Of a stretch of 64,000 bases of DNA, positions 31,409 through 59,047 are shown in pieces (the first letter of the stretch is position 1; the number at the start of each line of letters is the position of its first letter). Origin of the DNA: Asparagopsis taxiformis (taxonomy: Eukaryota > Rhodophyta > Florideophyceae > Bonnemaisoniales > Bonnemaisoniaceae); contig JALQPE010000226.1 of assembly GCA_030407315.1 (NCBI GenBank), forward strand, positions 37,998-101,997. The letters are read 5' to 3'. A program made the position numbers and the translations under genes. The notes below the pieces were generated by a model. The model was given only the letters and a program-made list of their open reading frames with translations. It had not been told where the DNA came from and did no database searches.

Positions 31409-31739
31409 CAGCATACCGTCGATCACCCATCTCCCTCACTATCGCGTTCTCCCTACCATCCGAACGCCATGCACCACCATCCGCACATACTTCAAGAACC
31501 CTCACGACCTAGATTACAAAAAATCTGCTCCTTCCCAATTCCATCCCCGCTTTCCTCGACACCACCCCAGCCCATTAAATCATCAAGACATCAAACACGA
31601 ACATGGTCAGCAAAATCTTACACCACTTGAAACCCACTCTCACTTCTATCGTACGCCCGAAAATATACACATACCAGAAACACCTCACAGCTTCATTCCC
31701 CATCTTCCTAGATCCCTTCTTCACTCTCCTTGAGTCCTG

Positions 31740-42204: not shown

Positions 42205-45200
42205 GAGAGTGCTCGCTGGGATATCCTCCATCGATTTACAATGGTCGCGTCCGAACAAGACCCGGAGAAGGAATCGTTTCGAGATATCTCGCTGAACAGA
42301 AGTTGGTGGCGCATTTGAAAAATTGTTGAGAGCCAGGTTGAGCCTTCCCTTCCAGTGGTTTCCAAGTGCAGCCATCATTGCATCAAACTGCCTGTCAGCA
42401 CCTCCCGAACTTTCAAGTCCTCTTTTCATCTGTTGGTGGGTTGCTTCGAAGGAAAGTTCAGCCACCTGACGAGCATGGTTGAGTAGAGGAACCGTGTGTT
42501 CGAAAGCTTCAATGAGTCTATGCAAGTTTGGCTTATTGTCCAAAAGCTTCCTTGTCCTGAATCCCGTAGTCTTCTGTTCAACTTCATTTTGGTCGGCGTC
42601 AATTACCACAGAGCCGTCTCCTTTCAGTTTTCTTTTCTTTGATGGTACCGTACTCCTTTTTCTCGGAGGAACGGTTACGAGCAGGTCATCTACACGTTTT
42701 GCATAATCTTTCGAAAGCTGTTGCAGTTTTCGAAAACGCTTAGCTGCCGATAGTCCGGTCGCGCTCTGTACTGACTCTATGCCGTCAATATCGACACGAG
42801 GTAGAAAATAAGTAGCTGCGGCGATTGAGGATAGCAATCGAACAAGTTCTAGGGAAAGTTCTCTTTGCTTCTCGGAAGCTCGGATAGACCTTGCTCCAGA
42901 GCCTTCTGAAGACTCCCCGGACTGGAAGCTCAGAGCCAACCCAAAACAGTGATCTGCGACTAGAAGTAAGGCAAATCTGTCCGAGATTCCCATTGTATTT
43001 GTTTCACCCGAGGTGAAGTTATATATCCTCTTCTGGTTAGTGAGACCTAGGACGTGAAGGGCATCTACCATAAAACTTTCTGCCATCCTTCTACTACCAT
43101 CACTAGGCAGGCACGAAAAAGCATTGTCCAGGGCATCCTTAGCAAGCCCTTGGAGGAGGTGGTCGATCCCAATAAATGTGGAACGGTATGAATCAATAAT
43201 AGCGGGAACAACAGGGATGCTCACAGAATCCATACCAAGGGGTGTGCCAGATGGAACGAGGCCTTTAGACCTAGTTTCATCAAGCAGTTGCTCTATAAGA
43301 AGCATCGGAGTTTCAGTAGCGCTTTGCACTTTCCTCATTCCCAGGTATTTCATGATGCTCACCGTACTTTGTGATGACTGAACTGCCTGAGTTCTCTCTG
43401 AAGTACGGAATAGAGAATCCGAACTAGAATGAAGACTGGTGTCGTACCCGAACTGTGAATGTTTCCCGTGTTTACCTCCTCTGACGAAGAAACACAAGTG
43501 GCATGGACAATCTGCATTGTGTCCCATGACATCGAGAACATGGGAACATGCGGGATAGTCTGATACAAAACCGACAAAGTCCAGGAAAATGATGCAATCG
43601 TTACCCTCTGGATCTACGTCATGGAAACCAGTCGTACATCCCTGGATTATGTCGCGAGAGATATGTCGAAGAATATGGTTTGTACTTACACCGGGACCAG
43701 TGACACCGATAATACGCACTGCAGAACTATTTCGGCGACAGTCCAGGGGCAGCCCCATGGGGATCATATAACATCCTCCAGCACTACCACTCTTACCAGA
43801 GGCCTCATTGAAGTCATCGCAGTACAAAAGAAAAGGGTAGACATAGTATGTGGTGCCACAGTCGAGAACACCACGGATACTTGTCGGATGGCAGGGAAGG
43901 GTATTCGTGCCCTGACTCAATAAAATGACAATGTTAATCGCACGACTGCCACCGATATTAGTGTAAAGTCCTTCAGAATTGATGAAGAACATGAGTTTGC
44001 GAAATGGAGACGGGGGACCCGGAGAGCTGACTATAAGACCGACGATGAAAGGCTGCCCAGTAGTATACGTAAAGTTACATCCTGAAGCAGGAGATAAAAG
44101 TGTGAGATGATCTCCAGGTCGAGCGAATTGCTCAAAGGACTTTTTGCGGAGTACCAAACCAGGCCCGAAGGAGTGGGGAGAAACGGACTGCTGCTGATCA
44201 GAGGCCTTACTGTTGTTCACCCATGAAGAGGACGTGAAAGCCACGAAAGAATCTGAGTTGGAGGAAATTGATTTCTTCTGAAAGCAGGAGGCGGCTCTAG
44301 GGTCCAGATGGTTGGCTTGTTGACCAGTGGTAACTCGGACCTGGACAGTACCACCCCCGAAAGCAGTGATGGGTGTACCATCCATCTCCTCAGCACTGAG
44401 AGAGTGGTTTTGTCCTTTCACGAAGCGCTCTCTGAATTTCCCCAGATTCGACGTATATATGTTTCCATGTATAGTTGGTACCCCATCAGATTCGAATGAC
44501 TTGGAGGCTACGTTATGGCGCCAGGCAAGATCGAACAGTTCTGGAGTAGATATGTCTTCTCGGGCGTATTCACTTGGTGGAACGATTAGTACTGGTGCAG
44601 TTTGGCCAGCGGTGTTCTGTTCAATCTTGCTTCTTCGCAAAATGGCCTGAGATGCCATACGTGCTGCACTGCGGTCTACATTCACGGGGAAATACACCGT
44701 TTCCGAACGCAACCAGGCGTTGAAGAATAGCCATGGTCTAACTTTTCGGGTGATCGTAGAATAATGAGGTAGCCCTTTCTGAACGTGCTTTTCAGTTGAA
44801 CCCTTCCTTGCGAAATCGAACAAAACGCGATCTTCATTCAGATCTGCGGCAGTGCATTTCGTGGATCCGGTCAACTTCGCTACTGCATACAGAGTTGTCC
44901 ATTGCGTCATATATTGGCGTGCCTTGAGCGGATTCGAGGTATCCTCGATGAAAGAGGACGAGAGGAGAAGCTTCGATTGTGTCATTTCTTGTAGAAGAAG
45001 GTCTTCATCTTCAGCACACACATCATTAAATTCTGGATGTGTATCATCTTCATCAATATGGCCAGGATAATGTTCGGAACCTCCTCTTCTATCAGTTTCG
45101 ATGTCATGAGTAGGCCCCCTGGTCGCGTTCTCGCTGCATGGCACGGAAACGACTTCATCTTCAACAGTACTTAAAACTTGATGACCTTCCAAAGCAGGGG

Positions 45201-45525
45201 GAACGATATATTGGATACCATCGCTGTCTGCGAAGGCAATGCTACCTTCCTGCGGAAGTAGGCCTTCGGGAGACATCGAAGTAGGAACTACTTCGGAGGG
45301 GCTTTCCAGGGGTAATCGCAGACTAGGCTCGGATCCTGGTGCAGTAGCGAGTGAGTCAAGGGATGAGGCAACTCGATCGACTTTAAAGGGTCTCGAGTCA
45401 TCTTGCCGAAGTGCAAAAGGATCAGATACGGTTCTGGACGTCGAACGTCTAGATCGGTTATGGGGATGCGGAACAGTGTTGTAACGAAGGCGCAGACCGG
45501 AACGGGGCTTCCTTGGTCTTCCCAT
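42079..45525 (-). CDS. putative RNase H-fold (DDE-type) transposase, 3' end overwritten by arm C
   Basis: Starts at an ATG (45523-45525). The first residues GRPRKPRSG form an AT-hook-like basic patch, followed by about 200 disordered residues. Around residues 560-680 is the most structured part: LLYCDDFN...GGCYM, then FLDFVGFVSDYPA and a cysteine cluster CPCHLC. Near residue 1030 is ELSFEATHQQMKR. The order of an Asp-rich strand, a CxC..C insertion and a distal Glu fits transposases of the CACTA/Plavaka (CMC) type; I assign the superfamily only tentatively. A KKRKLK basic patch may be a nuclear signal. Native sequence ends at about 42205 (residue 1107); the last 41 residues are read from arm C. 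The gene was therefore truncated by the arm, unless the arm is its own terminus. Confidence 0.5.
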   Translation of the reverse strand: MGRPRKPRSGLRLRYNTVPHPHNRSRRSTSRTVSDPFALRQDDSRPFKVDRVASSLDSLATAPGSEPSLRLPLESPSEVVPTSMSPEGLLPQEGSIAFADSDGIQYIVPPALEGHQVLSTVEDEVVSVPCSENATRGPTHDIETDRRGGSEHYPGHIDEDDTHPEFNDVCAEDEDLLLQEMTQSKLLLSSSFIEDTSNPLKARQYMTQWTTLYAVAKLTGSTKCTAADLNEDRVLFDFARKGSTEKHVQKGLPHYSTITRKVRPWLFFNAWLRSETVYFPVNVDRSAARMASQAILRRSKIEQNTAGQTAPVLIVPPSEYAREDISTPELFDLAWRHNVASKSFESDGVPTIHGNIYTSNLGKFRERFVKGQNHSLSAEEMDGTPITAFGGGTVQVRVTTGQQANHLDPRAASCFQKKSISSNSDSFVAFTSSSWVNNSKASDQQQSVSPHSFGPGLVLRKKSFEQFARPGDHLTLLSPASGCNFTYTTGQPFIVGLIVSSPGPPSPFRKLMFFINSEGLYTNIGGSRAINIVILLSQGTNTLPCHPTSIRGVLDCGTTYYVYPFLLYCDDFNEASGKSGSAGGCYMIPMGLPLDCRRNSSAVRIIGVTGPGVSTNHILRHISRDIIQGCTTGFHDVDPEGNDCIIFLDFVGFVSDYPACSHVLDVMGHNADCPCHLCFFVRGGKHGKHSQFGYDTSLHSSSDSLFRTSERTQAVQSSQSTVSIMKYLGMRKVQSATETPMLLIEQLLDETRSKGLVPSGTPLGMDSVSIPVVPAIIDSYRSTFIGIDHLLQGLAKDALDNAFSCLPSDGSRRMAESFMVDALHVLGLTNQKRIYNFTSGETNTMGISDRFALLLVADHCFGLALSFQSGESSEGSGARSIRASEKQRELSLELVRLLSSIAAATYFLPRVDIDGIESVQSATGLSAAKRFRKLQQLSKDYAKRVDDLLVTVPPRKRSTVPSKKRKLKGDGSVVIDADQNEVEQKTTGFRTRKLLDNKPNLHRLIEAFEHTVPLLNHARQVAELSFEATHQQMKRGLESSGGADRQFDAMMAALGNHWKGRLNLALNNFSNAPPTSVQRDISKRFLLRVLFGRDHCKSMEDIPASTLVCVLGNGRGRPQPLVHLVLLGGRPCSPVFLDVRLEPDVHAV

Positions 45526-45858
45526 GAAGTGACAACTGAGAATCTGAAGGTGTTCTAAGATGGAAATGGATTCAGAGACAGTGGATGGTTTCGATTAGGA
45601 CGAAATCGTTTGGTCAACCATAAGTTGAGGGCAGTCTGGTACTGAGTAGTCACTCACATAATACCGTTACAAGAGTTTTTCATATTACGTAATACGATTC
45701 CGTAATACCTGAAGCGAACAGTAAAATTTCAATGTCGAATAGGATTCCTTTAATAGTACTCTATTCGACATTCGCTGAACAGTGAGAAAGACATGTTGCG
45801 AGATGCTGAAATTTCGTAACTTTTGAGGTGCGAAAATTACTGGAAAAAAATTGAACGT
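45526..45858. other. upstream region of the transposase-like gene
   Basis: Contains a 12-bp perfect inverted repeat AATGTCGAATAG...CTATTCGACATT (about 45731-45772) embedded in a larger imperfect palindrome. No gene. Confidence 0.45.
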
Positions 45859-45992
45859 AATTTTTGGAGCCCGAAAAATTACCAAATTTTATCATCCACG
45901 GAAAAGGCGCTGTGGAGGTGTTCTGGTCGTTGGTAGCAGTGCCAAGGCACACCTGAGCAGTAGTATGAGAGGTCCCAAACCTTTGTTCTAGC
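45859..45992 (+). repeat. left inverted repeat flanking the intact ParB-like/oxygenase gene
   Basis: Contains TTACCAAATTTTATCATCC, GCGCTGTGGAGGTGTTCTGG, GTGCCAAGGCACACC and CCTTTGTTCTAGC. It is the reverse complement of 50729-50863 with few differences. Confidence 0.8.
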
Positions 45993-46282
45993 CTACTTCT
46001 ACTCTGCTTTAAAATATGATAGAACTGTAACTGTAACTAAAAGCTAGACAAGTATCTACGAGAAGGGAGGTGTACATGGAGGAAGGGACAGGACAGGTAT
46101 ATTTCAATATCACGCTCTGTTTGTTCAGCTCAGGTTGGCTGGGAGAGTTGATGTATAGAATGAAAAAAGAGACGGTTTATGAAGACATATCGTAAAGTTA
46201 TGGAATAGTCAACTGGTTGCAGCAAGCAACAGAATCGTTGAAATACGAGAGATCAACTAATGTCTACGGTAACTAACAGATT

Positions 46283-49200
46283 CTAGACTTCCATGTAATC
46301 CTCCCCAGAACTGCCAGCTGAAGAAGAGCTGGTATCACTCTCGACGTCGTGGGGTAACTCGTACATATCTGGCCTTGCGACCGGACGCGAGTCCTTCAAC
46401 GGTGCATAGACTACATCGTTGACTAAGACCGATGTTTCCCGAATTGCCATGGTGTGGGCCCTAATATGATGAGGATAAACCATCTTGTATTTCTTCCCAA
46501 GCTTGGTTTTCATCAGCTCGTGATCTTTCCATCCCGGGCCGCTGTGCTCGAGGTCCCCACGACATACTATAACAGAATACGGTGGGATCCATACCAATTC
46601 TGGCTTGAGCAGGGGAAATATGGCGGCTGCAGATCGATGGGGAGCGTTAAGGAATGCATGGCTTCGCGGCCGTACAATAAGTGGAGTGCCCATTGCACCA
46701 GTAGCGATGAATGAATAATCCGGAAATGGAATAGGAGTCCCGTTGAAGCGGTTTTCGTCTTCTAACGGAGGACCAGGGTTGACGAAGTCGAGATGTGGGA
46801 CTTGGCGCTCGCAACGAGATCCAGTTAGAAGCAACCTGAGCCCTGTCTTCCCGAACTGGAGCTTTGGGCCTTTTTCAAATCCGTCCAGAGACGGAGTTGA
46901 ATCCTCTAGATGCAACTTTTCTGCTATGATAGCAAAGAAAACATCCAAGGCCGCCTTGTCTCTCGCGAGAGTGGAAGTAGAATCCTTTTCCAGATCTTCC
47001 ACTACAGCCTTGCATGGGGTCATGAACCTTTGTTCATCCGGGCCACCACGCGCATCCTGGTCGGAAGAACCCGAATTCAGAATGGGCCCCCAAGCACCAT
47101 CCTGCCCATCTACGAACATGTTACAAAACGAGTCGAGGAGTTTGTGGATAGTAGAGCTGAGCTCGGATGGTTGTAGGATGCCGTCAAGGACGACATAACC
47201 AAGAGAGTCCAATCGGGCCCTGGCACGCTCGAAGTAAACCAATCTTGAAGAACTTGTATCCCCTGCCACGGACTCGATATCCTGCTGAAACTCTTCCACC
47301 TCACCCTCCGTTACATGAAATCCCGAGCGGTGTTCCGGATGCAGCAAACTGGAAATGGAACGCACCATTGAAGCAGCCTCCTCTACAGAGGTATGACTGG
47401 TGAGAAATGATGGGGGCTCAGGTTGCTGATCCTCGTACCGATGTACTTTGAAACCTTTGGATTGCAACCTCGTAGGAGTGATTTGATCCTCGTCTTCTTT
47501 TTCTTCTCCGGAGTCTTCATTGCCGTCCATGCTTCCTCCCTCATCATTACCTTGCTTGACTTGCTTTAAAGCAATTGCTGCTTTCTTCGTCTTCTTTGTT
47601 CCAGAGGCAGACCGAGGAGTAACCGAAGGAGTAGATGGGGAATCAAGTGACGCGATGTGCTCAGCAATAGCAGCAGATCTAGCCTTTGAACGAGTAAGAC
47701 GGGAAGGGAAAGAGAGAGATTGGGGGGATGATATAGCTCGCCGCTTCGCGGGTGGAGCTCCTGGAGAAGAAGGAAATTTCCTCTTCGCCCCCGTCTGTTG
47801 AGGAGCGGGTTCAGAGGGCTGCTGAGGTTTTTCCACCGAATCAGTACTGGAACTGGCCTTCGCATATGGGTTGAAGTCATCCCCTTCCCAGGCTTCCTGT
47901 TCCGTTACTCCCGCTGGCGGCTTCCAAGATGGTGGGTCACCATCTTTCCCACCATCGTAACATTTCCTGGAACAAACGAAGACCATATCACGCTCCCCTG
48001 CAGCGAGGTACTTCCTTGGGATGAGATGATGCACTCGCGCATAGTCACATAGATTGTGAACCGGATTAATTCCGCAAGCGGTGCATTTATGAACAGCGGC
48101 ACTTCCAGGAAAAGCGCAGTAATCTCCCAAAGAGCATGGAAACGGGCGTGGAGTAGTACTGTCACGCGGTATGCGGCTGACTGTGATGTTAGATACAGTC
48201 TTACTTGCTCCCTTCGACGCTGAATCCGGAGCTTTCTGAACTTCTGTGCCATCTTCCGCACCATCCGCACCAATTTCATTCCGTGAAGAGGGAGTGGAAT
48301 GCGCGTCGGGTGGTTCAGAACGGTTCTCGTCCTCGGAGCCCAGTTGCTCGGGATGTGGAGAATCTGCATCCTTTTCAGGTGCATCCTCCTCAGGTGCATC
48401 CTTGGAAATCTCCATGTCGTCATCCGACCCAGCGCTGGTTTCGGGTATCACCTGTTTTGATGCGGGAGTGGACGGTAGTTCCTCGACGGTCTCGTCGATA
48501 ACGACGTCATCAGAAGAGATGGGGATTGGGAGAGGTTCCATGATAACGTCTTCGAATTGGGTTAAACGACGTTCATGTCTCGAAGCACCCGTAGTCTTCG
48601 TCGCTGGTTGAGCAGCACCAGTCCACTGCGAAGCTTGCATAATAGCTTGAGTGACTGGTTCGCCACCTTGGCGCTTGTCTTGAACCCCCTTGTTTTCTCC
48701 ATTGCCGTCTTCTTCTTCATCCGGGCCGTGTGATTCGGATGAAACCTGGCGAGTGGACTGAATTCCAAAGCGGTCTCGAAGAACGGATCGAAAACTCTCC
48801 AGCCGTGCCTCCTGGTTTTCGGGTTTCCTCGGCACGGGCTCTTCCTCGTATTGAATCATACGTTTGTAGACGGATTTCCACGTTGGTATCATATCCGTTC
48901 CGTCTGATTCCAAGTCTTCGAGGTCAGCGATGTCTTCGGTCGACAGGTTACTGGCACGTGCCATCTCACGAATGACTTCGTAATATTGTTGAATGTAGGT
49001 CAAGTACGTCCGAAGGTCGAAAGACGGGACACGACCGAAGGTGGGAAGCAGTTGGACATTGCGGTAGTGAATGCACTTGACCATTAGCTCACTGGCACGA
49101 TCCTCCGCCCTTGTAAAAGCAGTGTCCTTGAGAATTAAAAGACTGATTCCAACTTCGTTTTCCTTTCTTCCTGAGGAAGCCTTGTACGCAGCGTATGTGC

Positions 49201-49879
49201 GGGGTGAACGCCTCATGTTCAACGCCACATTCACTATAGAAGATACCGTGCTCTTCTTCAGAATACCGCTGAAGTGGCGCTGGAAGAACCAGTTCGCAAC
49301 CTGTGATGCAGGCATATCAGCGACAGTTCTTTCACCGGGTCGGGCATATTTAACATTGCAGTTATAAATGCTAATGATCGCGTGGATACGATCTCGAACT
49401 GTGGTCGGTAACACCGTGTGGACGAGTTCATTCAAACGCTGACTGAGGTATAGCATGTCCTCCATTGTCATCTTTTCTCCGTCAGGTCTTTGAGCTTCTT
49501 GTACTGGGGCATTGTCAACCACAGACGCCAAACGTTCCACCCCTTTTTCTTTGCATCGTAAAAGAGCACGGCGACTATGGAGTCCGTCCACGATGTAATA
49601 GCGGCTTCCACTGGATTGGTAGGGTAAGGAAACAACTGTGATACATCCCACCGCAGAGGTCTGGAAGCCTTCCATAACCATCTTGCGGAACAACAAGTCA
49701 ACATTAGAGTCGTCAACTTCCCGGGATGTTTCATCGGGGACGTATATGTCCAGAATAGGCAACTTGATCATCTTGAAAACGTAATTCGACAACGAAGAAG
49801 CAACGGAGCGTGACATCGCAGGAATGACTAGTTGACGTGCGCTGGAAGAAGCTTCCCCTCGGCGGGGACGTAGGCTCAT
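46283..49879 (-). CDS. ParB-like / zinc-finger / 2OG-Fe(II) oxygenase fusion protein
   Basis: I place the start at the ATG 49877-49879 (MSLRPRRG), giving about 1198 residues; the frame is open further upstream to a TTG at 49951 without another ATG in better context. Residues about 35-300 are a ParB/Srx-like domain with YYIVDGLHSRRALL (residues about 95-107), the D-G-x-H loop of that fold, plus helical sequence. About 320-580 is an acidic, disordered linker. About 580-645 is a Cys/His cluster (CSLGDYC...CTAC...HNLC...H...CSRKC), consistent with a PHD/RING-like zinc finger. A basic Ser/Pro-rich linker follows. About 890-1130 is a 2-oxoglutarate/Fe(II) oxygenase core: PHLDF (H 46793-46795, D 46787-46789), RPRSHAFL and the distal His in DLEHSGPGW (46544-46546). 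Members of this oxygenase superfamily oxidise DNA bases, proteins or small molecules; a nucleic-acid or chromatin substrate is inference from the ParB-like and zinc domains. It is flanked by inverted repeats and divergent from the methyltransferase-SET gene. Confidence 0.75.
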   Translation of the reverse strand: MSLRPRRGEASSSARQLVIPAMSRSVASSLSNYVFKMIKLPILDIYVPDETSREVDDSNVDLLFRKMVMEGFQTSAVGCITVVSLPYQSSGSRYYIVDGLHSRRALLRCKEKGVERLASVVDNAPVQEAQRPDGEKMTMEDMLYLSQRLNELVHTVLPTTVRDRIHAIISIYNCNVKYARPGERTVADMPASQVANWFFQRHFSGILKKSTVSSIVNVALNMRRSPRTYAAYKASSGRKENEVGISLLILKDTAFTRAEDRASELMVKCIHYRNVQLLPTFGRVPSFDLRTYLTYIQQYYEVIREMARASNLSTEDIADLEDLESDGTDMIPTWKSVYKRMIQYEEEPVPRKPENQEARLESFRSVLRDRFGIQSTRQVSSESHGPDEEEDGNGENKGVQDKRQGGEPVTQAIMQASQWTGAAQPATKTTGASRHERRLTQFEDVIMEPLPIPISSDDVVIDETVEELPSTPASKQVIPETSAGSDDDMEISKDAPEEDAPEKDADSPHPEQLGSEDENRSEPPDAHSTPSSRNEIGADGAEDGTEVQKAPDSASKGASKTVSNITVSRIPRDSTTPRPFPCSLGDYCAFPGSAAVHKCTACGINPVHNLCDYARVHHLIPRKYLAAGERDMVFVCSRKCYDGGKDGDPPSWKPPAGVTEQEAWEGDDFNPYAKASSSTDSVEKPQQPSEPAPQQTGAKRKFPSSPGAPPAKRRAISSPQSLSFPSRLTRSKARSAAIAEHIASLDSPSTPSVTPRSASGTKKTKKAAIALKQVKQGNDEGGSMDGNEDSGEEKEDEDQITPTRLQSKGFKVHRYEDQQPEPPSFLTSHTSVEEAASMVRSISSLLHPEHRSGFHVTEGEVEEFQQDIESVAGDTSSSRLVYFERARARLDSLGYVVLDGILQPSELSSTIHKLLDSFCNMFVDGQDGAWGPILNSGSSDQDARGGPDEQRFMTPCKAVVEDLEKDSTSTLARDKAALDVFFAIIAEKLHLEDSTPSLDGFEKGPKLQFGKTGLRLLLTGSRCERQVPHLDFVNPGPPLEDENRFNGTPIPFPDYSFIATGAMGTPLIVRPRSHAFLNAPHRSAAAIFPLLKPELVWIPPYSVIVCRGDLEHSGPGWKDHELMKTKLGKKYKMVYPHHIRAHTMAIRETSVLVNDVVYAPLKDSRPVARPDMYELPHDVESDTSSSSAGSSGEDYMEV

Positions 49880-49951
49880 GGTTGGGATCGCAAGGAGGGT
49901 CGAATAGTTGACGATTGAAACGGTACCAGAGTAACGCGGTATGCCTTTCAA

Positions 49952-50436
49952 GTAGCAGGGGAGTAGTAATCAGCTAGCCAGCGAGGGACAATGTATTAAC
50001 AACAAATTTGTTCAACTGGGAGGACACCAAAACTGTGCGTAAAAATTCAGACCGCGCGAGCGGTTTCTATTGGCGCATGGTCCAACCTGAATCGAATAAA
50101 CGGTCATAGCGCCAGTTCGAATAAAAATGTTAATTTCGGTAATTTTGCAATCTCGAAAAGTTACCGAACTACATACACCTTTCATGACTCGTATATTATC
50201 AATAAGAAAAGAAGAAATGGAAACTGACTCTATCTCAGCAAGTATTAATACAACGGAAGTAGTCCTGAACCATTCATGACTTGTTCCAGTTAGTCAATGT
50301 TCTTCAGACATGTGCCGGATGCAGCTACACGAACCGTTTATTGAGCCTCACACCCTTTTATTTCTCCTACCTACCTTTTCCGCGCAGTGCTGAAGTGTCA
50401 GTATCTTTTTGTTCTCGTTAGATATAACGGTACTCA
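49952..50436. other. 5' flank of the ParB-like/oxygenase gene
   Basis: No gene. A weak palindrome TTCGGTAATTTT...AAAAGTTACCGAA at 50134-50169 resembles the hairpin in the flanking inverted repeats. Confidence 0.35.
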
Positions 50437-50546
50437 GGTGTGCCTTGGCACTGCTACCAACGACCAGAACACCTCCACAGCGCCTTTTCCGTAGATGATA
50501 AATTTGGTAATTTTTGGCCCAAAAAATTACCAAATTTTATCATCTC
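50437..50546 (+). repeat. extra internal copy of the flanking inverted repeat
   Basis: Same orientation as the right repeat: GTGTGCCTTGGCACTGC...GACCAGAACACCTCC...GATGATAAATTTGG, ending with its own palindrome at about 50496-50545. The outer GCTAGAACAAAGG part is absent. Confidence 0.7.
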
Positions 50547-50728
50547 CCAAATCGTCCGTTCTGACCACCACGGCAGCCTTTCTGCTCGCCACCAAACCCA
50601 CTCCAACACTCTCTACGTCTTCATCTACCTATCTGAACCGACCTCAATACACCTCACTCCGCGTCTTTCTATGCCCGTCCGGCTATCATTTACTGTTATA
50701 CCATTTTTTGAAAGCTGGGCCGAAGTGA

Positions 50729-50876
50729 GCTAGAACAAAGGTTGGGGACCTTCCATACCACTCCTTAGGTGTGCCTTGGCACTACTACCAACGACCAGAA
50801 CACCTCCACAGCGCCTTTCCGTGGATGATAAAATTTGGTAATTTTTTGGGCTCCAAAAATTACCAAATTTTATCAT
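50729..50876 (-). repeat. right inverted repeat with terminal palindrome
   Basis: Matches 45859-45992 inverted. It ends in a near-perfect palindrome of about 53 bp (50824-50876) with arms GATGATAAAATTTGGTAATT and its complement, centred on a GGGCTCC-type core. The left copy retains only one arm of this palindrome. Confidence 0.8.
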
Positions 50877-50921
50877 CTCCGAAATCGCCTGTTCGCGTTC
50901 GTTCGCTGCTGTCCCACCCAT

Positions 50922-50965
50922 TGCCACTTGTGGGAAATTGCGCGCGCAATTTCCCACAAGTGGCA
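50922..50965. repeat. perfect 44-bp palindrome
   Basis: The left arm TGCCACTTGTGGGAAATTGC (then GC) meets its exact reverse complement with no loop; the centre is GCGC/GCGC at 50943/50944. It lies in the intergenic region between the divergent ParB-like/oxygenase and methyltransferase-SET genes. Confidence 0.9.
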
Positions 50966-51000
50966 CGTCTCGAATTATAGCGCTATAATTCGAGACGTGC
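50963..51000. repeat. perfect 38-bp palindrome
   Basis: The arm GCACGTCTCGAATTATAGC and its exact complement, no loop. It overlaps the preceding palindrome by three bases, forming a tandem of two different perfect palindromes. Confidence 0.9.
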
Positions 51001-51501
51001 GCCCCTTCACGCTCAATTCCATCGATCCGCTCCGGTATTAATATCATGAGAACCGTTCTAGAAGGGGTGTGGGATGTCTTCCACGAAAATTGTATTTTGC
51101 ATAGACAGTGAATGAGGTGTGAACGGGTGGAAGCAGTGTATTAGCCAGCTTAGAGTCCTCCGCAGTAGACCCCGATTTCACTAATACGATACTTCCAACC
51201 GTTCAGTTCGGATTCTCATAGTTTCATGGACAACCCTTGTAATGTCAGGTGCTCACATGCATGTCCTCGCGACCTCTCCATAGCACTTTACAGATTGTTC
51301 CGAGGAATGCACAAATTACGATTTCAAATTTGCGGTCCTTTTCTTACCAGCACCTCCGCTGCCACCGACGCATCGACCTCATTTCGGATTCTGCCTTCTT
51401 CTTTTCCTCTTCTATTGCTATATTCAAGGCGCGATGGTTGATACAATGAAACTGGGGCTGTTATCTCTGCAAGCGAGCGTGGCCCCACCAATCCAGGGGA
51501 C
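51001..51501. other. 5' region of the methyltransferase-SET gene
   Basis: The methyltransferase frame is open back to a TGA at 51439-51441 with no ATG between. A short frame (51226-51441) in the same phase precedes that stop. Either a 5' exon lies here and is spliced to the main frame, or translation starts at a downstream ATG. Confidence 0.4.
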
Positions 51502-54500
51502 TTGTATGGAGACGGAACTATCATATGGGTAGATCCAGCTCGTGTTGTTTCTATACCAGCAATTGAAGGTTTTGGTACTGCAGCTTCAGACATTTCTTCC
51601 CGAGTGTCTCTGGACTTTGATGCACTCCATCTTTACGGATCTATCACTGAAAATGGTGATGTCACCCTTGTCGGAGGCATGGACGTCTGTGAGGAGATCT
51701 GGTCGCGCCCCCGCACGAAAACTTCACGGTTTTTAGTACGCATGAGCTACGAGTCTATCTCTTCAGAGCCACACACACTGATCTCTATTGTTTATCACAT
51801 CCTCAGGAGAGAAAGACGGGTTCCCTTCACTGAATCAGTTGCCATACTTGCATACCTTCGTGACTACTGGCATGATCGGGAGAGGAATGAGGATAACGTT
51901 CCCCTTGCACATCGCACCCTCCCAGGATTTCGAGCTGCTGTCAAGGCCATGTTCCAATCAAAGCTTCCGCCTGCGGCAGTCGCTGTCATGGAAGATTGGT
52001 TTGGGAAGGCCTACCATCGTCATACCTTCAATATCGTCCAGTCCCTCCGCACTTTCTCGTCTTCGGAATGCGATGAGGGGTCTAACGACGTAGACACGAG
52101 GGTTTGGGATATGTTCCTGACCAGTTGTTCCTTACAAGACTTATCAATGTCTCTCTTCACGCCAGTGTTCGTTGTAGAAGAGCACAGAACAACCACAAAG
52201 TTACCATCCAGCCAAAGCCTCCACAGCCAAGGTTCGGAACCTCTTCCCGTTGCACAGTATTTCCACTCAGTGCACACGGCGTCTCGGTCTTCAATTGGTC
52301 GTGAATCATTCGTGCGGCAGACTCTGGCTTGCCAATTCTTTGTTGCGCATACCCAGCTACGAACTACGGACCATGGAAACTGGGCTACTCCAAGAGTTTC
52401 TTCCGCTTTCGAGAAGATTATATTTCTCATGGCTATGCTACAAATGGAAAGAGATTTAAAAGCCACCCCGGTGAGGCCGAGAACAAGGTCCTCGTCTAAT
52501 CGAACTGTATTGATCAGAAAGGAATCTCCTGCTTCCGCTCAGCGCCTCGGCTACGCTATTCATGTGGTCGTGAAGGCATGGGATACACTGGCTCGTGCAC
52601 TGGATGTTTCAACGGCCGAGGAACTTCTCCAACCTTATCTTCTTTATGATCAGCGCATGTTCAAGTACCATGTGCTAGACTCAGAGGAAAGGGGGTTCTC
52701 TCCTCTTCGAGAGCTAAAGACGTTATTGCATGGCAGAGGGGCCGTGCGAAAGTTGCAGCATGCCAAAAGTATATCCCATCGAGCAGTTCATCGCTCCGTC
52801 CTCCAAGACGCTCAGATGCGCCTCTGCGCCTCCTCCTTCTGGGCACACATTACAGATATTACTAAGGATCGAAAACTATTTGACCAGACCGTTTCTTCTC
52901 CGAAACAAAACGCGTTTCTTTGCGCATTCGAAGCACAGGAAGATTCTATAGAAACTGATTCTGGGAGGTTCACTTCTATTCCTGGCCTTCAAAACGTCGA
53001 GAGGCAGCTCACGGCCTTCAGAAACTCTGAACTACCACAATCGACTCCTGAACCAAACGAGGAGCTTTTTGGAGAAGCTGATACATCTTTCGCTCCCGTT
53101 CCTGCGTCACCATCCATTGAACAAAACACGGATACAGGTGTCAAACGGAAGCGACTGGACAACAGTAATGAAACTGATGTTCCTGCAAAGTCAGCTCGCA
53201 CTTCTGAGCCGGTGAGCGCTCATAGAAGGCCATCAGACACAAGTACTGCCGAGTCCTTAGACATCGAATCTATGCGTCTCGGAGACCCTGTTTCAATTCC
53301 AGCAAACCTACAAAACATGAAGGCTTCTTGCCTACACACACTCAATTGCAGTTTCAGAGATCTTCTTGAGACCTATGAACGCATTGATATTCCTGCAAAA
53401 CCGGAGCTTGTAGAGGGTGCCCAATTGGTTCTCACAGATCCACCGTATAATTCGAGACGAACAGCTGGGAGAGAGAATTCAGCGTATGACATTCTCCGCC
53501 AACAAGAAATCGTGGACACAGTGGCAACTATCGCAAAGGTAACACGACAGGGTGGTCATGTTCTCATCTTCACATCTGCTGCCCTTTTCTACAACTGGGT
53601 TTACGAACTCCGAAAGGTCAAGACTTCTACGAACACTCCCATGTTTTCAGTTGATTCACAGCCTATCTTCTGTATTCGGAGCCCAACGCATTTCACTTCT
53701 CCGCCATATAGATTTACGACCAGTTTAATGAATATGTCTGAGCTGGTTGTACATGCTACAAAGCTCGGAAAGGGAAGAAAAGGATGGGCGATGGTGAACT
53801 ATAAAAATGCCGGTTACATCCCAACCAGATTCCGAGCATGGACAAATATTATCGACAACATTCCAAGGATATCGCCTTCAGAGACTGTCAAATATTTCGA
53901 CCAAACGGAACAGAAGAACAAGGTACTGCGCCCGGAGCAGAAGCTCGTTGGTTTGTTGCAGGAACTAATTGGGCGATTTTCACACCAGGGAGATTTGGTT
54001 GTCGACTTGTTCGCCGGAACATTCTCCACTGCAGTCGCTTGCCTTAACATGCGCCACGGTCAGTATAGGCGGTTTGTCGGTTGTGAAAAGTACAAAGATT
54101 GCTTTGAATTATCTCTTCCGAGAGTTCATACTGCATTTCTGCGTCAAGTAGCAATTGGTAATTTTGCTCAGCTCTCCAATCCTTCGCTACAACAACTCGC
54201 CTCATCACATCTACCGGTTTCCGAGGAGGGTACGGTTTCAAAGCCTACCTCAGGTTTGCCAGTTGCTACGCGACTTCCGCCCCACCTCGTCAGTTTCCTC
54301 ACTAGCATGTGGGGTATCCCAGACCAATACAAACAACTGGGCGACCTTCCAGTTCACAAATGGCCTCAATCACTTCTCGGCATGCTGTCCACCATTGACA
54401 ACAATCTTCTGCTTTCCATTGATGCCATGGCACACAACGTGTACGTCGCGCCCTCAACTATTCCGGGGGCTGGTGACGGTCTTTTTGCCAGAGGCCAGAT

Positions 54501-54930
54501 CGACCCTGGTGACATTGTTGGATTTTATTTCGGTTCATTGGTTTACAGAGATCTCTATAAATCAAAAGGCAAGACGTTTGGAACAGGTCCCACCGCATTT
54601 ACCGTGGAGCGCTTCAGAAGCTACGCTCTTCAAATCAAGGATTCGAATATATCTTGTTTGCTTCCTTCTACTGCTGGAAGCCCCATATTTGTCGTCCCTT
54701 TCGAGTACTGTGTCGCTTCGAAAATCAATGACCCCAACTTTGTGGATCCAGCTGAGGGAACTGAACGTCCTTCACGCGCAGCTAACGTTAGTTTCTCGTC
54801 TCCCGTTCAAGAGCTCCTCGACGAGAATACTGTCTCAAACTATCAAGTTGTCTGTGTTACTGCCAACGTGCCGATCTCTGCTGGCTCCGAGCTGTTCATA
54901 GAATATGGTAATGACTACTTCTCAGTTTAA
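51502..54930 (+). CDS. amino-type DNA methyltransferase fused to a SET domain
   Basis: About 1142 codons; the real start is unresolved because 51502 is TTG and the first ATG (MDVCEEIW) is at about 51679. Residues 1-500 form a helical region without known motif. About 540-560 holds a bipartite-like nuclear signal (KRKRLD...AKSAR). The methyltransferase follows: motif IV DPPYNSRR at 53437-53448 (residue 646), then QGGHVLIF, then motif I VVDLFAGTFSTA at about residue 835. The order IV before I is that of beta-class N6-adenine or N4-cytosine enzymes. Residues about 975-1142 are a SET domain: GAGDGLFARG, GFYFG, RAANVSF (the NH-x-C-equivalent) and ELFIEYG. SET domains methylate protein lysines with the same cofactor. 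One chain may thus modify both DNA and a protein such as a histone; substrates are inference. Confidence 0.75.
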   Translation: MYGDGTIIWVDPARVVSIPAIEGFGTAASDISSRVSLDFDALHLYGSITENGDVTLVGGMDVCEEIWSRPRTKTSRFLVRMSYESISSEPHTLISIVYHILRRERRVPFTESVAILAYLRDYWHDRERNEDNVPLAHRTLPGFRAAVKAMFQSKLPPAAVAVMEDWFGKAYHRHTFNIVQSLRTFSSSECDEGSNDVDTRVWDMFLTSCSLQDLSMSLFTPVFVVEEHRTTTKLPSSQSLHSQGSEPLPVAQYFHSVHTASRSSIGRESFVRQTLACQFFVAHTQLRTTDHGNWATPRVSSAFEKIIFLMAMLQMERDLKATPVRPRTRSSSNRTVLIRKESPASAQRLGYAIHVVVKAWDTLARALDVSTAEELLQPYLLYDQRMFKYHVLDSEERGFSPLRELKTLLHGRGAVRKLQHAKSISHRAVHRSVLQDAQMRLCASSFWAHITDITKDRKLFDQTVSSPKQNAFLCAFEAQEDSIETDSGRFTSIPGLQNVERQLTAFRNSELPQSTPEPNEELFGEADTSFAPVPASPSIEQNTDTGVKRKRLDNSNETDVPAKSARTSEPVSAHRRPSDTSTAESLDIESMRLGDPVSIPANLQNMKASCLHTLNCSFRDLLETYERIDIPAKPELVEGAQLVLTDPPYNSRRTAGRENSAYDILRQQEIVDTVATIAKVTRQGGHVLIFTSAALFYNWVYELRKVKTSTNTPMFSVDSQPIFCIRSPTHFTSPPYRFTTSLMNMSELVVHATKLGKGRKGWAMVNYKNAGYIPTRFRAWTNIIDNIPRISPSETVKYFDQTEQKNKVLRPEQKLVGLLQELIGRFSHQGDLVVDLFAGTFSTAVACLNMRHGQYRRFVGCEKYKDCFELSLPRVHTAFLRQVAIGNFAQLSNPSLQQLASSHLPVSEEGTVSKPTSGLPVATRLPPHLVSFLTSMWGIPDQYKQLGDLPVHKWPQSLLGMLSTIDNNLLLSIDAMAHNVYVAPSTIPGAGDGLFARGQIDPGDIVGFYFGSLVYRDLYKSKGKTFGTGPTAFTVERFRSYALQIKDSNISCLLPSTAGSPIFVVPFEYCVASKINDPNFVDPAEGTERPSRAANVSFSSPVQELLDENTVSNYQVVCVTANVPISAGSELFIEYGNDYFSV

Positions 54931-55473
54931 ACAGGAACGCATTGGCGTTTTTCACACCTACATCATGTTCTCCCTGCTTCCCATTACCCCGCAAATAGTA
55001 AAATAGGCAAAGTATGTTCTATCTCCTCATTCCCTCTAACATCCGCGATGATTAGGTGCATTTCTTTCCCGTGAACAGGACGAGGACCTGATCTACCTAA
55101 TGTTCAGGTCTAGATCTCTTTTTACTCGAGTAATTTTCCCGTCCGAAATTATGCATAATTTAAACAGTTATTGTACCACACCATTTATTTAGATCTACGA
55201 CCGTTACGGCACGGTGCATTCGTAACGGTTCCACAGCCTCCTTTATCTCTTCCTACTTCTACAAATTGAATAGGTCGGTTACAACACGTAGCATTTGTAA
55301 CGTTTCGATCTCTCCCCTTTCCTTCCCTTCTTCAATAAACGGACAAGTTCCGAACTTAAACAAATTACCTTTACCACCATTCTACTGGATAACTCTTCAT
55401 CTTGGAATACCTGATCCCAGTAGCTCTGACGTTACGAAACATATCTGTGAAGATCTCCTTATTCCAGGCTGAC
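54931..55473. other. intergenic region with Tyr/pyrimidine-rich leader
   Basis: Contains two related CGTTAC(G/A)...CGTAACG-type inverted motifs near 55200-55235 and 55270-55305. CTCCTTATTCCAG at 55455-55467 resembles a 3' splice site just before the ATG of the next gene. Confidence 0.4.
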
Positions 55474-57147
55474 ATGAGAGACGAACTATCCTTAACCAGG
55501 TTTGCGCAGTTTGAGGAACGGTTTGCCTACCTTGAACAGTACCTCCGCGATTCTCTTTCATCTGTTCAAATGGAACTAGCCTGCATTCGGTATATGGCCT
55601 CTGCTGCAGCTGGTACAAACGTTGTTCCACCTGTGGTTCTGGAAGAGCGTTCAAGAAAATCAGCACAAGTTACCACTCTGGTGTCCTCTCTTTTCAACAA
55701 CAGACTTGTGACATCCAGGTTCGTCGCGTTTCGAACCATTGCAGAGTTCATCAAAACCTCTGTTACCCCAAACTCGTTCTGTGCAACATCTGTACCGTGT
55801 TCAAATGAAGATTCCTGCACTACTTTGCTTCTGGCTTCCCTTTCCTTCTCTCAGACATCCAGTTCTAATTCTGAGGTCAGGCAGTCCAAGAAATCCCTAA
55901 TTGGAACAGCTGTAGGGAAAAAGCATGTGTTCCTGAAACGTGCTATTGTCGGAACTGCGTTTATTTCTATGGCAAATGACAGAATTGTGCGATGGAAGGA
56001 TTCGGCGACGAGGAATTCTGGTACCCTTGACCCTGGGGAGGAGGATGACCTGAACAGCAATACCATTTCTCGTGACTACGCACTTCGCAATGCAACCATC
56101 GTGCCAATCAATAAGCCTGCTTGGTTGCAGATTTCGCAGCGGGCTCTTTTCCATGCCATGGATATTTCGATGCCAACGGAAACAGATCGACCTGCGCCAC
56201 AGTCCACAACTCTACCAATCAATTATTCGAAACGTCGCCGACTCTCGGGTTCTAAAGGAGAACAGCGCCGTACTGGTTCTTCCTCATCTTCGTCTTCTTG
56301 TGTATCTAATCTTTCTCCTTCGGACTTACAGTCCATTCCGATCGTTACTTCGGCACTGCGGCAGCTCACACAGTTTTTCAATACTTCCCGGAAGCAGATG
56401 AAAATGGAATTAGTCAAACATGCATTCTTCCTCATCCATCGAGATATGCAGGCTAAAGTTTCTCTTTCGCCTGACAATGACATTTCTGCATTGGATATGT
56501 GTCCATCTGAAAAAATTCCGATAACTTCGAAAGCTTACGGCACAGGGGATGAGTCTCAAGCTGTCTATTCCAAAAATGATGATATCTTCTCGGATTTTAT
56601 TTTGAGTCGACCTGAGCTTCACATTCAGGTTACTTACAAAGTTCAGGTTAGCGGCGCCGTAGACGGCTCCTGCAATGCAGGTACAAAGGCCCCGGTTGAG
56701 AGATTGGCCGTCTGTTCTTTTTCTTTTCTTACATTAGCTATGATATTGTTGTGTAGTTTCTGCCAATGCACACAACTCGAGATGCTCTGTCACGAACCCC
56801 ATTCAATTCAGGCATGTTATCGCATTGCAATTTGCCTGCACGGGTTATTCACCACAGCCCTTACAATGGCGCCTACCGGTAATTTCGGGAATGATGGTTT
56901 CCCTCTGCGTGTTACATGGGGTCACATCGACCTCCGTGACTACCTCATGGGGGGTGATTGCCTTCTAGGTATTATTAGGAAGAAGAGAAACATCACTGCA
57001 GAGGAATACATGTCGGTGCGGTTCGATTCTAATGCCACACAGATGGAACAATCCTACGAAAACCCAACAGCCAGGGTAGCATCTAATGTTCATTGTGTAC
57101 CTCTAGAGGAAGATGATGAACTTGGTATTTCTTTAATTGATGTGTAG
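55474..57147 (+). CDS. unknown protein with N-terminal coiled coil
   Basis: I choose the ATG at 55474 (MRDELSLTRF), 557 residues; the frame is open for 24 codons upstream without ATG and a splice-acceptor-like CAG precedes it. Residues 8-35 (RFAQFEERFAYLEQYLRDSL) are heptad-like and probably form a coiled coil. Near 250-275 there is a basic KRRRLSGSKGEQRR patch followed by a Ser run, suggesting nuclear location. A hydrophobic stretch near residue 430 (FSFLTLAMILLCSF) could be a helix or, less likely, a membrane segment. The acidic C-terminus ends EEDDELGISLIDV. I do not recognise a domain. It lies between the methyltransferase-SET gene (same strand) and a convergent gene of comparable size that also has an E-R-x-L-E-rich helix. 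Confidence 0.55.
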   Translation: MRDELSLTRFAQFEERFAYLEQYLRDSLSSVQMELACIRYMASAAAGTNVVPPVVLEERSRKSAQVTTLVSSLFNNRLVTSRFVAFRTIAEFIKTSVTPNSFCATSVPCSNEDSCTTLLLASLSFSQTSSSNSEVRQSKKSLIGTAVGKKHVFLKRAIVGTAFISMANDRIVRWKDSATRNSGTLDPGEEDDLNSNTISRDYALRNATIVPINKPAWLQISQRALFHAMDISMPTETDRPAPQSTTLPINYSKRRRLSGSKGEQRRTGSSSSSSSCVSNLSPSDLQSIPIVTSALRQLTQFFNTSRKQMKMELVKHAFFLIHRDMQAKVSLSPDNDISALDMCPSEKIPITSKAYGTGDESQAVYSKNDDIFSDFILSRPELHIQVTYKVQVSGAVDGSCNAGTKAPVERLAVCSFSFLTLAMILLCSFCQCTQLEMLCHEPHSIQACYRIAICLHGLFTTALTMAPTGNFGNDGFPLRVTWGHIDLRDYLMGGDCLLGIIRKKRNITAEEYMSVRFDSNATQMEQSYENPTARVASNVHCVPLEEDDELGISLIDV

Positions 57148-57274
57148 ATTTCTGTTTACTGTTCTGCTATCTTTGCCTACGTAACCTGGCATTGTTTGCC
57201 TCTAGTTCTCAGTATACATGTGTCTCTATTAGCCTGGCAGAACCGTTTTTGCTTTATTCATTGCACTACTGGTA

Positions 57275-58969
57275 TCATTTTATGTACTCCTCTGCCCTTT
57301 TGTCTGAAAAGTTATACCCCACCACATCTTTGACTAGATCTTCCGATATCAACTTGTCTATTCGCCATGGTTCGCCAAAACCTCGGAATACGACGTAGGG
57401 TATATGAATTCGAAATGTTCCCCACAACACATCCCCTGTCTGTCCCCTTTTCTTATGCGTTATCGGTTGCCATTCTATACGAAAACTCTTCTTCCCGTCA
57501 CCTTTCCACCCTTCCCGACTCGCATCCCCGTCAGGCCTCCTATGTACGGCACAAATCGATGGGCATTTTTTCAGCTCCATGCCATGCACATATTGACCTT
57601 GGACCGCAGAACTATTCTTGCGCACTAGGCACCACGTGTTCGATTTTGCTCCGGATACGCAGAACGAGCTACTGCCAATTGCAACAGATGATGGATCTCC
57701 GTTCGTCGTTTCTGTGCACAACAATGCACCAAGCAAGCGCAAGAACAATGGCCTCCTAGGCCGATTTCCGCTAATCACTCCCCCTTCTTCCTCTTCCACT
57801 GCCGCTCCAGGCTTTCGTCTGTGCAGCAATGACTCCATTCGCCACGGGTGAGGTAATCCTAACAAGTCCGATACTGCTGCAAAACTGGAACATGTAATGT
57901 TCACAGCTTCAGCACCAGTTCCGCTCACTGCCTCATGAAGCCCAGGGTAAACTTTGTAATAACATCCTGCATACAACTCTGTTGTTCCCTTCAACATTTC
58001 CCGGAATACGGTTGTGCTCAATGAAGCAGGAATATGCACTGGACCACTCACAACTGTCCCACTGGTACATGCACCATCCACCTCACTATGCGGAAAATCC
58101 GTCCCGGAGTTTGACAACGTAACTCTGTTTGCCTGTTCTACAGCTTTCTCGACTGAGCGGCGCAAAAGCATCAATAGAACCGGTCCAGTGGACGTGAGTG
58201 CAGGTTCTATTGGAACTTTCCCATCGTAAACCATCCGATGATCGCCACCACTTCCAGAAAGAATAATACTTTCTAGTGTTCTCAGCCTCTTCTCCATGCC
58301 ACTGTATGTGTTGGAATCAAGTACCGATTCCACTTTTGGCTTCTTCTTTTGCGGGGACATCGCTTCAGATTCACCATCCGATTCGACATGATGTTCCACT
58401 CCGGCCTCTTCGTAGTCCACAACCTCTCCGTTGCTCCTTCGCCACGGTGTTGGTGGCTGACCCCCGGACATCAACTTACTTCCCAGCACAAATTTTACGT
58501 GTTCATAGGAGACGCAAGGGTAATTCCTTTCAGGAATTGCATCGTATAACAATCTGCCTTCTGCAACCACTATTTCATCATGCCTTGGCTTCACAGAATC
58601 CGAATACCGCCACTTTGACACTTCCGTTACTGCAATATCCTTTTCCTCCGTCGTCAACTTCACAATTGCAGTATCCAAATCCTGACCCTGCTGCTCCACC
58701 ACTCCGGGCGTGTACACGCCATCTCCTCTGTCCACATCGATGCGGTCACCCACTGATGGTTTACCCGAGCAAATAGGATACTGCTCGGGAAGTTTCATTT
58801 CCACTACCACAGCCTTCCACCACATTGAGTCGTCCCCCACCTGGAACCATACCTCTATTTGGGTGCCGACAGACGGAAGTGCATCAACAGCTGCAGCTCG
58901 TTCACGCTCCCGACACGCTATTGCTTTTTCGCTTTGGCGCCTAATTCGCAATGATTCCCGCCTGGTCAT
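57275..58969 (-). CDS. unknown protein with N-terminal Tudor-like region
   Basis: I take the ATG at 58967-58969 (MTRRESLRIRRQ), 564 residues; the frame extends 26 codons further to a TTG. Residues about 28-60 (VGTQIEVWFQVGDDSMWWKAVVVEM) and about 70-105 (VGDRIDVDRGDGVYTPGVVEQQ) resemble two small beta-barrel Tudor/agenet-type strands, which in other proteins bind methylated residues. A PQKKKPKVES patch near residue 210 is a likely nuclear signal. A short helix GMEKRLRTLESIIL follows. The C-terminal half (with RRPLFLRLLGALL and GYNFSDKR) is unrecognised. The gene converges on the preceding coiled-coil gene with 127 bp between stops. A role reading chromatin marks would suit its neighbours but is speculation. 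Confidence 0.55.
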   Translation of the reverse strand: MTRRESLRIRRQSEKAIACRERERAAAVDALPSVGTQIEVWFQVGDDSMWWKAVVVEMKLPEQYPICSGKPSVGDRIDVDRGDGVYTPGVVEQQGQDLDTAIVKLTTEEKDIAVTEVSKWRYSDSVKPRHDEIVVAEGRLLYDAIPERNYPCVSYEHVKFVLGSKLMSGGQPPTPWRRSNGEVVDYEEAGVEHHVESDGESEAMSPQKKKPKVESVLDSNTYSGMEKRLRTLESIILSGSGGDHRMVYDGKVPIEPALTSTGPVLLMLLRRSVEKAVEQANRVTLSNSGTDFPHSEVDGACTSGTVVSGPVHIPASLSTTVFREMLKGTTELYAGCYYKVYPGLHEAVSGTGAEAVNITCSSFAAVSDLLGLPHPWRMESLLHRRKPGAAVEEEEGGVISGNRPRRPLFLRLLGALLCTETTNGDPSSVAIGSSSFCVSGAKSNTWCLVRKNSSAVQGQYVHGMELKKCPSICAVHRRPDGDASREGWKGDGKKSFRIEWQPITHKKRGQTGDVLWGTFRIHIPYVVFRGFGEPWRIDKLISEDLVKDVVGYNFSDKRAEEYIK

Positions 58970-59047
58970 AGTTCCTCCACCAAATAAAGATACTAGAGCC
59001 CACAATTTGCAATTCTGTTTAGGAAAAGTCTTCGTTGACTTCTTCAA

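Follow-up and report, generated by a model that had tools for sequence, protein, structure and literature searches.

Transposons that carry one epigenetic factor, whether a TET/JBP dioxygenase, a SET lysine methyltransferase or a VANC anti-silencing protein, are already known. Here, we describe a large CACTA-like DNA transposon in a stretch of 64,000 nucleotides (the window) from the red alga Asparagopsis taxiformis (contig JALQPE010000226.1) that carries two adjacent genes, one for a predicted fusion of a DNA amino-methyltransferase with a SET domain, the other for a protein in which a ParB-like region is combined with a zinc finger and a putative 2-oxoglutarate (2OG)-Fe(II) oxygenase domain. 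To our knowledge, the VANC proteins contain no known catalytic domain, whereas catalytic domains are predicted here, and we know of no SET or ParB-like domain in the beta-class adenine methyltransferases CcrM, DpnA and RsrI.

TET/JBP genes have been described on fungal DNA transposons of the KDZ, EnSpm, Plavaka and other groups (Kojima 2025, PMC12730594). These resemble the present element in being DNA transposons with a 2OG-type dioxygenase, which is thought to aid the escape from silencing, but they are fungal and their dioxygenase is of the TET/JBP type, whereas the domain found here matches no Pfam family; the term 'ParB' is absent from that paper, and its relevant passages describe no DNA methyltransferase gene on those transposons. 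The same source names SET-bearing transposon families of Phytophthora, of the HarbingerS and MuDR types, which likewise encode a SET lysine methyltransferase but belong to other superfamilies, and the passage concerned shows neither a methyltransferase fusion nor a ParB/oxygenase partner (PMC12730594). The VANC proteins of the VANDAL elements of Arabidopsis act against silencing on the motifs of their own family, with targets that differ between related elements, and they offer a parallel for element-encoded proteins directed to their own kind (PMC5735166). The bdelloid N4CMT is a bacterial-type PF01555 methylase in eukaryotic chromatin that is also fused to a chromatin-linked domain, but it is a host gene with an SPPY motif and a chromodomain, whereas the gene described here has a DPPY motif and a SET fusion and is mobile and multicopy (PMC8885841). 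No transposon combining a methyltransferase-SET fusion with a ParB/oxygenase gene was found in the open-access literature, a search that left Repbase Reports and most subscription papers outside.

The element was delimited by comparing its copies in the genome assembly that holds the window (141 Mb in 3,156 contigs). Its boundaries and the two genes are as follows:

27663..59911, plus strand: whole transposon of subfamily A, an element of approximately 20.8 kb plus a nested insertion at 30756-42205
27663..27676, plus strand: left terminal inverted repeat CACAGCATAAGCAA, with the target duplication TA at the window copy
59898..59911, minus strand: right terminal inverted repeat, in plus-strand letters TTGCTTATGCTGTG, from the end comparison between copies
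46283..49879, minus strand: ParB-like/zinc finger/putative 2OG-Fe(II) oxygenase gene, approximately 1,198 amino acids from the ATG
51502..54930, plus strand: fusion gene for an N-terminal region, a DNA amino-methyltransferase and a SET domain, assigned from the open reading frame (ORF) and from Pfam, fold and profile matches

The terminal inverted repeats are perfect over 14 bp (CACAGCATAAGCAA...TTGCTTATGCTGTG) and give the element 5'-CA..TG-3' termini. Target duplications of 2 bp were present in five of the seven copies of which both flanks were read (TA at the window copy, GC at C1596, CC at C348 and GT at C1630 and C2132; none at C2079 and C2057), of which C1630 and C2132 are perhaps not independent since they share all 12 bases of the left flank. 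Both features agree with the CACTA/EnSpm (CMCT) lineages, which mostly have CA..TG ends and target duplications of 2-5 bp (PMC12730594). As the candidate transposase is without a Pfam match, the label CACTA-like rests on the ends, the duplications and a protein motif. Membership in the KDZ group was ruled out by the 2-bp duplications, compared with 7 bp in Kyakuja and 8 bp in Zisupton (PMC12730594). The original prediction had described the gene pair as lying in repeat-bounded DNA, which was right but understated, since the pair sits within a complete transposon (27663-59911); the genes do lie on a transposon, the ends of which are CACTA-like and not KDZ-like.

The left boundary at 27663 was common to all three copies read that far, and the right boundary at 59911 was sharp in seven of the ten other copies aligned; two further copies run off their contig and the C2849 copy departs from the alignment at window position 56943. 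Copies without the nested insertion are approximately 20.8-21.2 kb long. A 30-base pattern of the terminus gave 188 genome-wide matches with at most two mismatches, and the control gave none. The methyltransferase-SET protein had at least 40 matches in the genome, including 36 over the full length (96-100% identity), of which 30 were free of stop codons, and the ParB/oxygenase protein had at least 41 at 93-100%; such counts refer to the best 38-55 candidates per query (133 for the oxygenase query of subfamily D and 62 for one other) and to places in the assembly, some of which are perhaps alleles or doubly assembled loci (C2793 and C1596 have a common right flank). The element has transposed as a whole and is present in many near-identical copies.

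In the left subterminal region of the C348 copy (element positions 189-1001), a short tandem repeat, one frame of which reads YPVDMDHAHPTVQLL, occurs together with the repeated sequence CCCGACGGTACAAC; these are possibly transposase-binding repeats as in CACTA elements. Moreover, two left termini of the CACAGG type stand back to back, approximately 570 bp apart, on C86 (15045 / 15616) and on C730 (15623 / 16194); these termini facing away from each other represent either two elements joined head to head or some composite structure.

The two recognized domains of the methyltransferase-SET protein lie in its C-terminal half:

53422..54111, plus strand: DNA N6/N4 amino-methyltransferase domain, with DPPY at amino acid 646 and DLFAGT at amino acid 835
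54472..54909, plus strand: SET domain, with INDPN at amino acid 1075 and ELFIEYG at amino acid 1130, from PF00856, profile and fold matches

The methylase domain matched PF01555 (N6_N4_Mtase) with an E value of 1.4e-12 and a score of 48.5 bits (cut-off 26.7), and motif IV (DPPY) precedes motif I (DLFAGT), an order that together with the fold match is that of beta-class amino-methyltransferases. The DPPY motif is typical of bacterial N6-adenine enzymes and SPPY of N4-cytosine enzymes (PMC8885841); as the motif is no proof, the predicted substrate is either N6-adenine or N4-cytosine. The SET domain matched PF00856 with an E value of 7e-5 and a score of 23.6 bits (cut-off 22.4), its region gave profile matches to SETD8, EZH2 and SETD7, and a fold match to SET7/9 had an E value of 3e-5. 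Within the family, 21 of the 24 aligned members matched SET at E values up to 0.1, and the precomputed Pfam annotation of the database recorded it in 9 of 25. The aligned position departs from the canonical SET motif N-H-S/T and reads IND, of which N and D hardly vary among family members. By these domain matches, the product joins a DNA amino-methyltransferase to a SET domain, as originally predicted, with both Pfam scores above the cut-offs and fold matches for both parts. Both genes of the pair were likewise borne out as long frames at the coordinates originally given, which the 36 full-length matches and a ratio of non-synonymous to synonymous substitution rates (dN/dS) of about 0.1 place beyond chance.

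Some relatives of the methyltransferase begin, on profile evidence, with a ParB-like domain: five of five N-termini that had been selected for a DGxHR-type motif matched phrog_1033 at E values up to 1 (best 8e-7); Pfam gave no ParB match for the N-termini of these relatives and the N-terminal profile had no match in the PDB. The TTG starts listed for both ORFs are mechanical. Other copies start the methyltransferase at an ATG located 23 codons (approximately 70 bases) upstream of the listed start, and since window positions 51434-51502 are one base shorter than in C348, this native ATG is out of frame in the window copy. The same shortened open-frame length appeared for C716 in the list of matches.

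The methylase domain also matched the phage-type family phrog_67 (E value 4.3e-23), which along with the large size of the element would suit a viral origin, namely an insertion of a giant virus or a Polinton-like element in place of a cut-and-paste transposon. This explanation was considered and rejected as extremely improbable, since the element has short perfect terminal inverted repeats and 2-bp duplications, and since among its five ORFs of at least 500 amino acids the Pfam matches above cut-off were confined to the methylase and SET domains, with no viral gene seen. In IMG/VR, queries with single members gave no relative, and the matches listed for the methylase family were confined to the methylase domain and its immediate vicinity, with approximately 21-46% identity in the 80 listed loci that were kept. 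A single phage record showed similarity to a methyltransferase relative, limited to 10% of its length.

The ORF of the ParB/oxygenase gene spans 46283-49951 on the minus strand with an in-frame ATG 24 codons in (approximately 49879), and three regions were distinguished within it:

49424..49819, minus strand: ParB-like domain (approximate), with DGLH at amino acid 122 of the ORF, from phrog_1033
47900..48148, minus strand: zinc finger, a Cys/His cluster from amino acid 602 of the ORF
46340..47242, minus strand: putative 2OG oxygenase domain, with HLDF at amino acid 1053, RGDLEH at amino acid 1131 and HHIR at amino acid 1161

The ParB-like region gave weak matches to phrog_1033, with an E value of 0.046 for the window protein and of 0.0015 for a 125-amino-acid piece of subfamily D. 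An hhalign comparison with the N-termini of the methyltransferase family, in which one side consisted of three closely similar sequences, yielded a probability of 73%. The ParB-type motif reads DGLHRR in P0001, DGLHRRG in subfamily D and DGLHS in the window copy. The Cys/His residues of the zinc finger are conserved in subfamily D, and Pfam recognized neither this domain nor the ParB-like one. Thus, the originally proposed ParB/Srx-like domain found a counterpart in weak PHROG matches but not in Pfam, and the zinc finger is backed by its conservation in D but likewise not by Pfam.

An HxD...H pattern provides the iron ligands of 2OG-Fe(II) oxygenases. In the C-terminal domain, the motifs HLDF, VRPRSH, RGDxEHxGxGW and HHIR are invariant among subfamilies A, B and D at 61-78% amino acid identity, and thus include this ligand pattern. 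At the level of motifs, the domain is therefore likely a 2OG-Fe(II) oxygenase. The opposite possibility, that it is no 2OG oxygenase and that the cassette comprises a writer without an eraser, accords with the lack of a profile match in Pfam, the PHROGs and the PDB, the last giving only unrelated entries at E values of 1.4 or more, and with a single-sequence structure prediction of the protein that had a predicted local distance difference test score (pLDDT) of 35 and no usable fold. It is nevertheless somewhat unlikely, as HxD, the distal His in RGDxEHxGxGW and HHIR are all kept at the identities given above and the dN/dS of the region is low. No TET/JBP profile was matched by the oxygenase domains of the window copy and of subfamilies B and D in Pfam at E values up to 10, and a distant relationship to TET/JBP is conceivable. 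The oxygenase assignment of the original prediction hence stands on conserved motifs in three subfamilies but not on profiles or structure, and the structural check proposed for both proteins matched the methylase and SET folds but gave no usable model of the ParB/oxygenase protein. A profile query with the oxygenase domain gave no match in IMG/VR and a collection of prokaryotic genomes.

The two genes were found next to each other in three subfamilies of the element. In subfamily A (window type), a partner was located within 8 kb at 26 of the 40 listed places, always upstream and on the opposite strand. Subfamily B (P0003, 75% identical to the window protein) had the partner in 34 of 37 listed entries, always upstream and on the same strand, and subfamily D at two of four listed places, both downstream and on the same strand. 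These counts used 41 + 136 oxygenase matches; the 37 entries of B represent 36 copies, one of them split in two, and a listed place of A, B or D without a partner does not imply its absence, as the listing is incomplete. With approximately 180 sites and 16 kb around each in 141 Mb, association by chance would be expected at a few per cent. The oxygenase query of subfamily D had at least 136 matches, mostly in tiers of approximately 97%, 76% and 59% identity. A copy of D on C1754 is decayed and carries both genes, and a type 79% identical to P0003 was counted as D on account of the 98% identity between its oxygenase part and that of C1754. The types of P0003 and P0004 are both multicopy in this genome, and the P0004 type (subfamily E) occurs in several copies on contigs C2178, C24, C305 and others. 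The best match of P0005 in this genome is 39% identical, and the family thus exists elsewhere too.

The gene order is head to head in A, tandem with the ParB/oxygenase gene first in B, and tandem with the methyltransferase gene first in D. The head-to-head layout of the original prediction therefore applies to subfamily A but not to B and D, and was ruled out as an essential feature.

The oxygenase region showed dN/dS values of 0.09-0.14 over 221 codons among A, B and D, and the ParB region (345 codons) and pieces of the methyltransferase-SET gene showed, between A and D, proportions of synonymous differences (pS) of 0.73-0.86, near saturation, and of non-synonymous differences (pN) of 0.14-0.26; dN/dS between subfamilies is rough, given synonymous rates of 1.1-3.2 or beyond estimation and the decay of the D copy. 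Among near-identical copies, for which the counts are small, the methyltransferase gene differed at no synonymous and one non-synonymous site and the ParB gene at nine synonymous and nine non-synonymous sites (pN/pS 0.31). By these codon comparisons, both genes are under purifying selection, and the low dN/dS together with the co-occurrence in A, B and D indicates that selection has kept both genes together while their order and orientation changed. This bears out the original view of a maintained pair carried by a transposon. Passive cargo, in the form of host or bacterial genes that were captured but do nothing for the element, would be in line with the established ability of large transposons to capture genes and with the further ORFs of this element that have no assigned function. 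It was considered and rejected as improbable, since dN/dS is about 0.1 between subfamilies and both genes were retained in A, B and D despite the rearrangements.

Palindromic modules lie at two sites next to these genes:

45857..46014, no strand: remnant of a palindromic module that separates the transposase-like gene from the ParB gene, with the inner arms missing here
50424..50894, no strand: intergenic region of the divergent pair, containing two palindromic modules, shortened in the window copy

All ten other A copies contain one to three long palindromes with arms of at least 30 bases and up to approximately 80 bp, located either ahead of the transposase-like gene or in the interval that separates the divergent pair, and up to approximately 170 bp in total. 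In the D copy, several palindromes flank both genes on either side, upstream of the starts as well as past the 3' ends. The core is mostly TTACTCGAGTAA in A and TTACTGCAGTAA in D. Within the window, arms of at least 25 bases were found only at 26720-26772, outside the element, and at 50817-50884. In C348, near-perfect palindromes are located at element positions 6840-7000, 11580-11745 and 11995-12160, and their inner 54-80 bp (approximately) are variably present. The variability could reflect instability during replication or assembly, or the insertion of small hairpin elements, and the gene inversions could have arisen by recombination between inverted palindromes. The ParB proteins of bacteria bind palindromic sites such as parS, which suggests by analogy that the palindromes of the element are candidate binding sites for the ParB-like proteins.

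Taken together, the two genes may be accessory genes of a CACTA-like transposon that provide self-directed chromatin and keep the promoters of the element open against host silencing, a tentative reading to which we assign a probability of roughly 0.42. ParB-like domains would bind the palindromes of the element, as bacterial ParB binds parS; the methyltransferase-SET protein would write N6-adenine (or N4-cytosine) methylation and a histone-lysine mark at the promoters of the element; and the oxygenase would remove or oxidize a methyl mark, be it a silencing mark of the host or one set by the element. The transposon promoters would thereby be held open. The original suggestion of a cassette that serves to silence, mark or license a transposon is likewise tentative. 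In the red alga Gracilariopsis chorda, DNA methylation is mostly non-CG and includes transposons (PMC8566409), so that a host mark to be removed would exist in red algae. The complete form of this proposal, in which ParB-like proteins take a DNA-adenine/histone-lysine writer and an oxidative eraser to the parS-like palindromes of their own element and, with diverging recognition cores, each subfamily would address itself, is unlikely to hold in full.

Several observations weigh against this interpretation. Subfamily E (P0004 type, 49%) had a ParB/oxygenase gene within 8 kb at none of 42 listed places, where a partner less than approximately 59% alike could not be listed, so that E is either solo or accompanied by a diverged partner; the original prediction was to be refuted if the two genes never co-occurred in other copies, and they do co-occur in A, B and D of this genome but not at the listed places of E. 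When about 8,000 best candidates of the protein database were scored, the ParB/oxygenase gene, as a whole or with its oxygenase part as query, had a single relative (a 99% match) and the methyltransferase had 25, and the pairing may thus be local. One A palindrome, at the left site, holds the 'D' core TTACTGCAGTAA, the palindromes differ between copies and most of them are shortened in the window copy by loss of the inner arms, and the N-terminus of the window methyltransferase is without a DGxHR motif. The missing profile and fold matches of the oxygenase domain belong on the same side.

The same anatomy would also fit self-restraint or self-marking, in which the methyltransferase-SET protein silences or marks its own element, for copy-number control or at the transposition ends, and the oxygenase relieves this effect. 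A bdelloid PF01555 enzyme linked to silencing places N4-methylcytosine on transposons (PMC8885841). The many near-identical copies argue against a tight restraint, and genes that silence only their own element would be hard to keep under selection; self-restraint is accordingly regarded as rather doubtful.

The remaining parts of the element include an insertion, the interrupted transposase-like gene and two further ORFs:

30756..42205, no strand: nested 11.45-kb element with the ends CGTCTGTG...CACAGACG / CGTCTGTGTTTTCGGAA...TTCCGAGAACACAGACG and the 2-bp duplication AG
42206..45525, minus strand: 5' part of the transposase-like gene, with the 3' part near 30050-30755 and a 1,363-amino-acid frame in the uninterrupted C348 copy
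55402..57147, plus strand: ORF of approximately 580 amino acids, an open frame in C348
57275..59047, minus strand: ORF of approximately 580 amino acids, present in eight of ten other copies

The nested element splits the transposase-like gene, as read at the junction against C348, and is absent from this site in eight of the ten other copies; in the other two, the junction lies outside the alignment rows listed. No ORF of more than 210 amino acids was listed within it, and repeats related to it occur elsewhere in the window at approximately 19.3-21.4 kb and 63.4 kb. This insertion and the methyltransferase frame that is one base short mark the window copy as damaged, with intact copies elsewhere. 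A stretch of 1,279 amino acids of the transposase-like protein had no Pfam match at E values up to 10, and the protein contains a D-x-P...C-x2-C motif that looks CACTA-like, which makes it a candidate relative of the TNP2, EnSpm or Plavaka transposases. Near-identical copies of the gene showed five synonymous and 13 non-synonymous differences (pN/pS 0.81), with little constraint visible. The ORF at 55402-57147 is a candidate coding frame with four non-synonymous and no synonymous differences between copies. The ORF at 57275-59047 has a pN/pS of 0.21 (seven synonymous and five non-synonymous differences) and gave no match in PDB and Pfam searches, which do not support a presumed Tudor/Agenet-like identity. 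The ratio of observed to expected CpG was 0.87 in the C348 copy, and as this is no strong depletion, there is no clear trace of 5-methylcytosine decay. Outside the element, the window contains three Copia-type (RVT_2) retroelement coding regions at 70-1758, 8455-12630 and 13307-16993, the last being a single frame of 1,228 amino acids.

If the proposed reading is true, a writer of two marks and an eraser would be under the control of a high-copy element itself, with ParB-like regions in both protein families. The element would then offer a natural source of DNA-amino methylation in a red alga and a testable case of bacterial ParB-type recognition transferred into eukaryotic chromatin. In the lineage 6 assembly of Asparagopsis taxiformis (142 Mb, 3,308 contigs), DNA transposons account for 33.48%, and a figure legend of the same paper labels two DNA methyltransferases, one site-specific and the other adenine-specific, on contig 5424 beside the bromoform (mbb) cluster (PMC12115072). 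These methyltransferases beside an agriculturally important locus may be copies of the transposon family described here, and the element may have contributed to the share of one third that is reported for DNA transposons in this agriculturally relevant seaweed.

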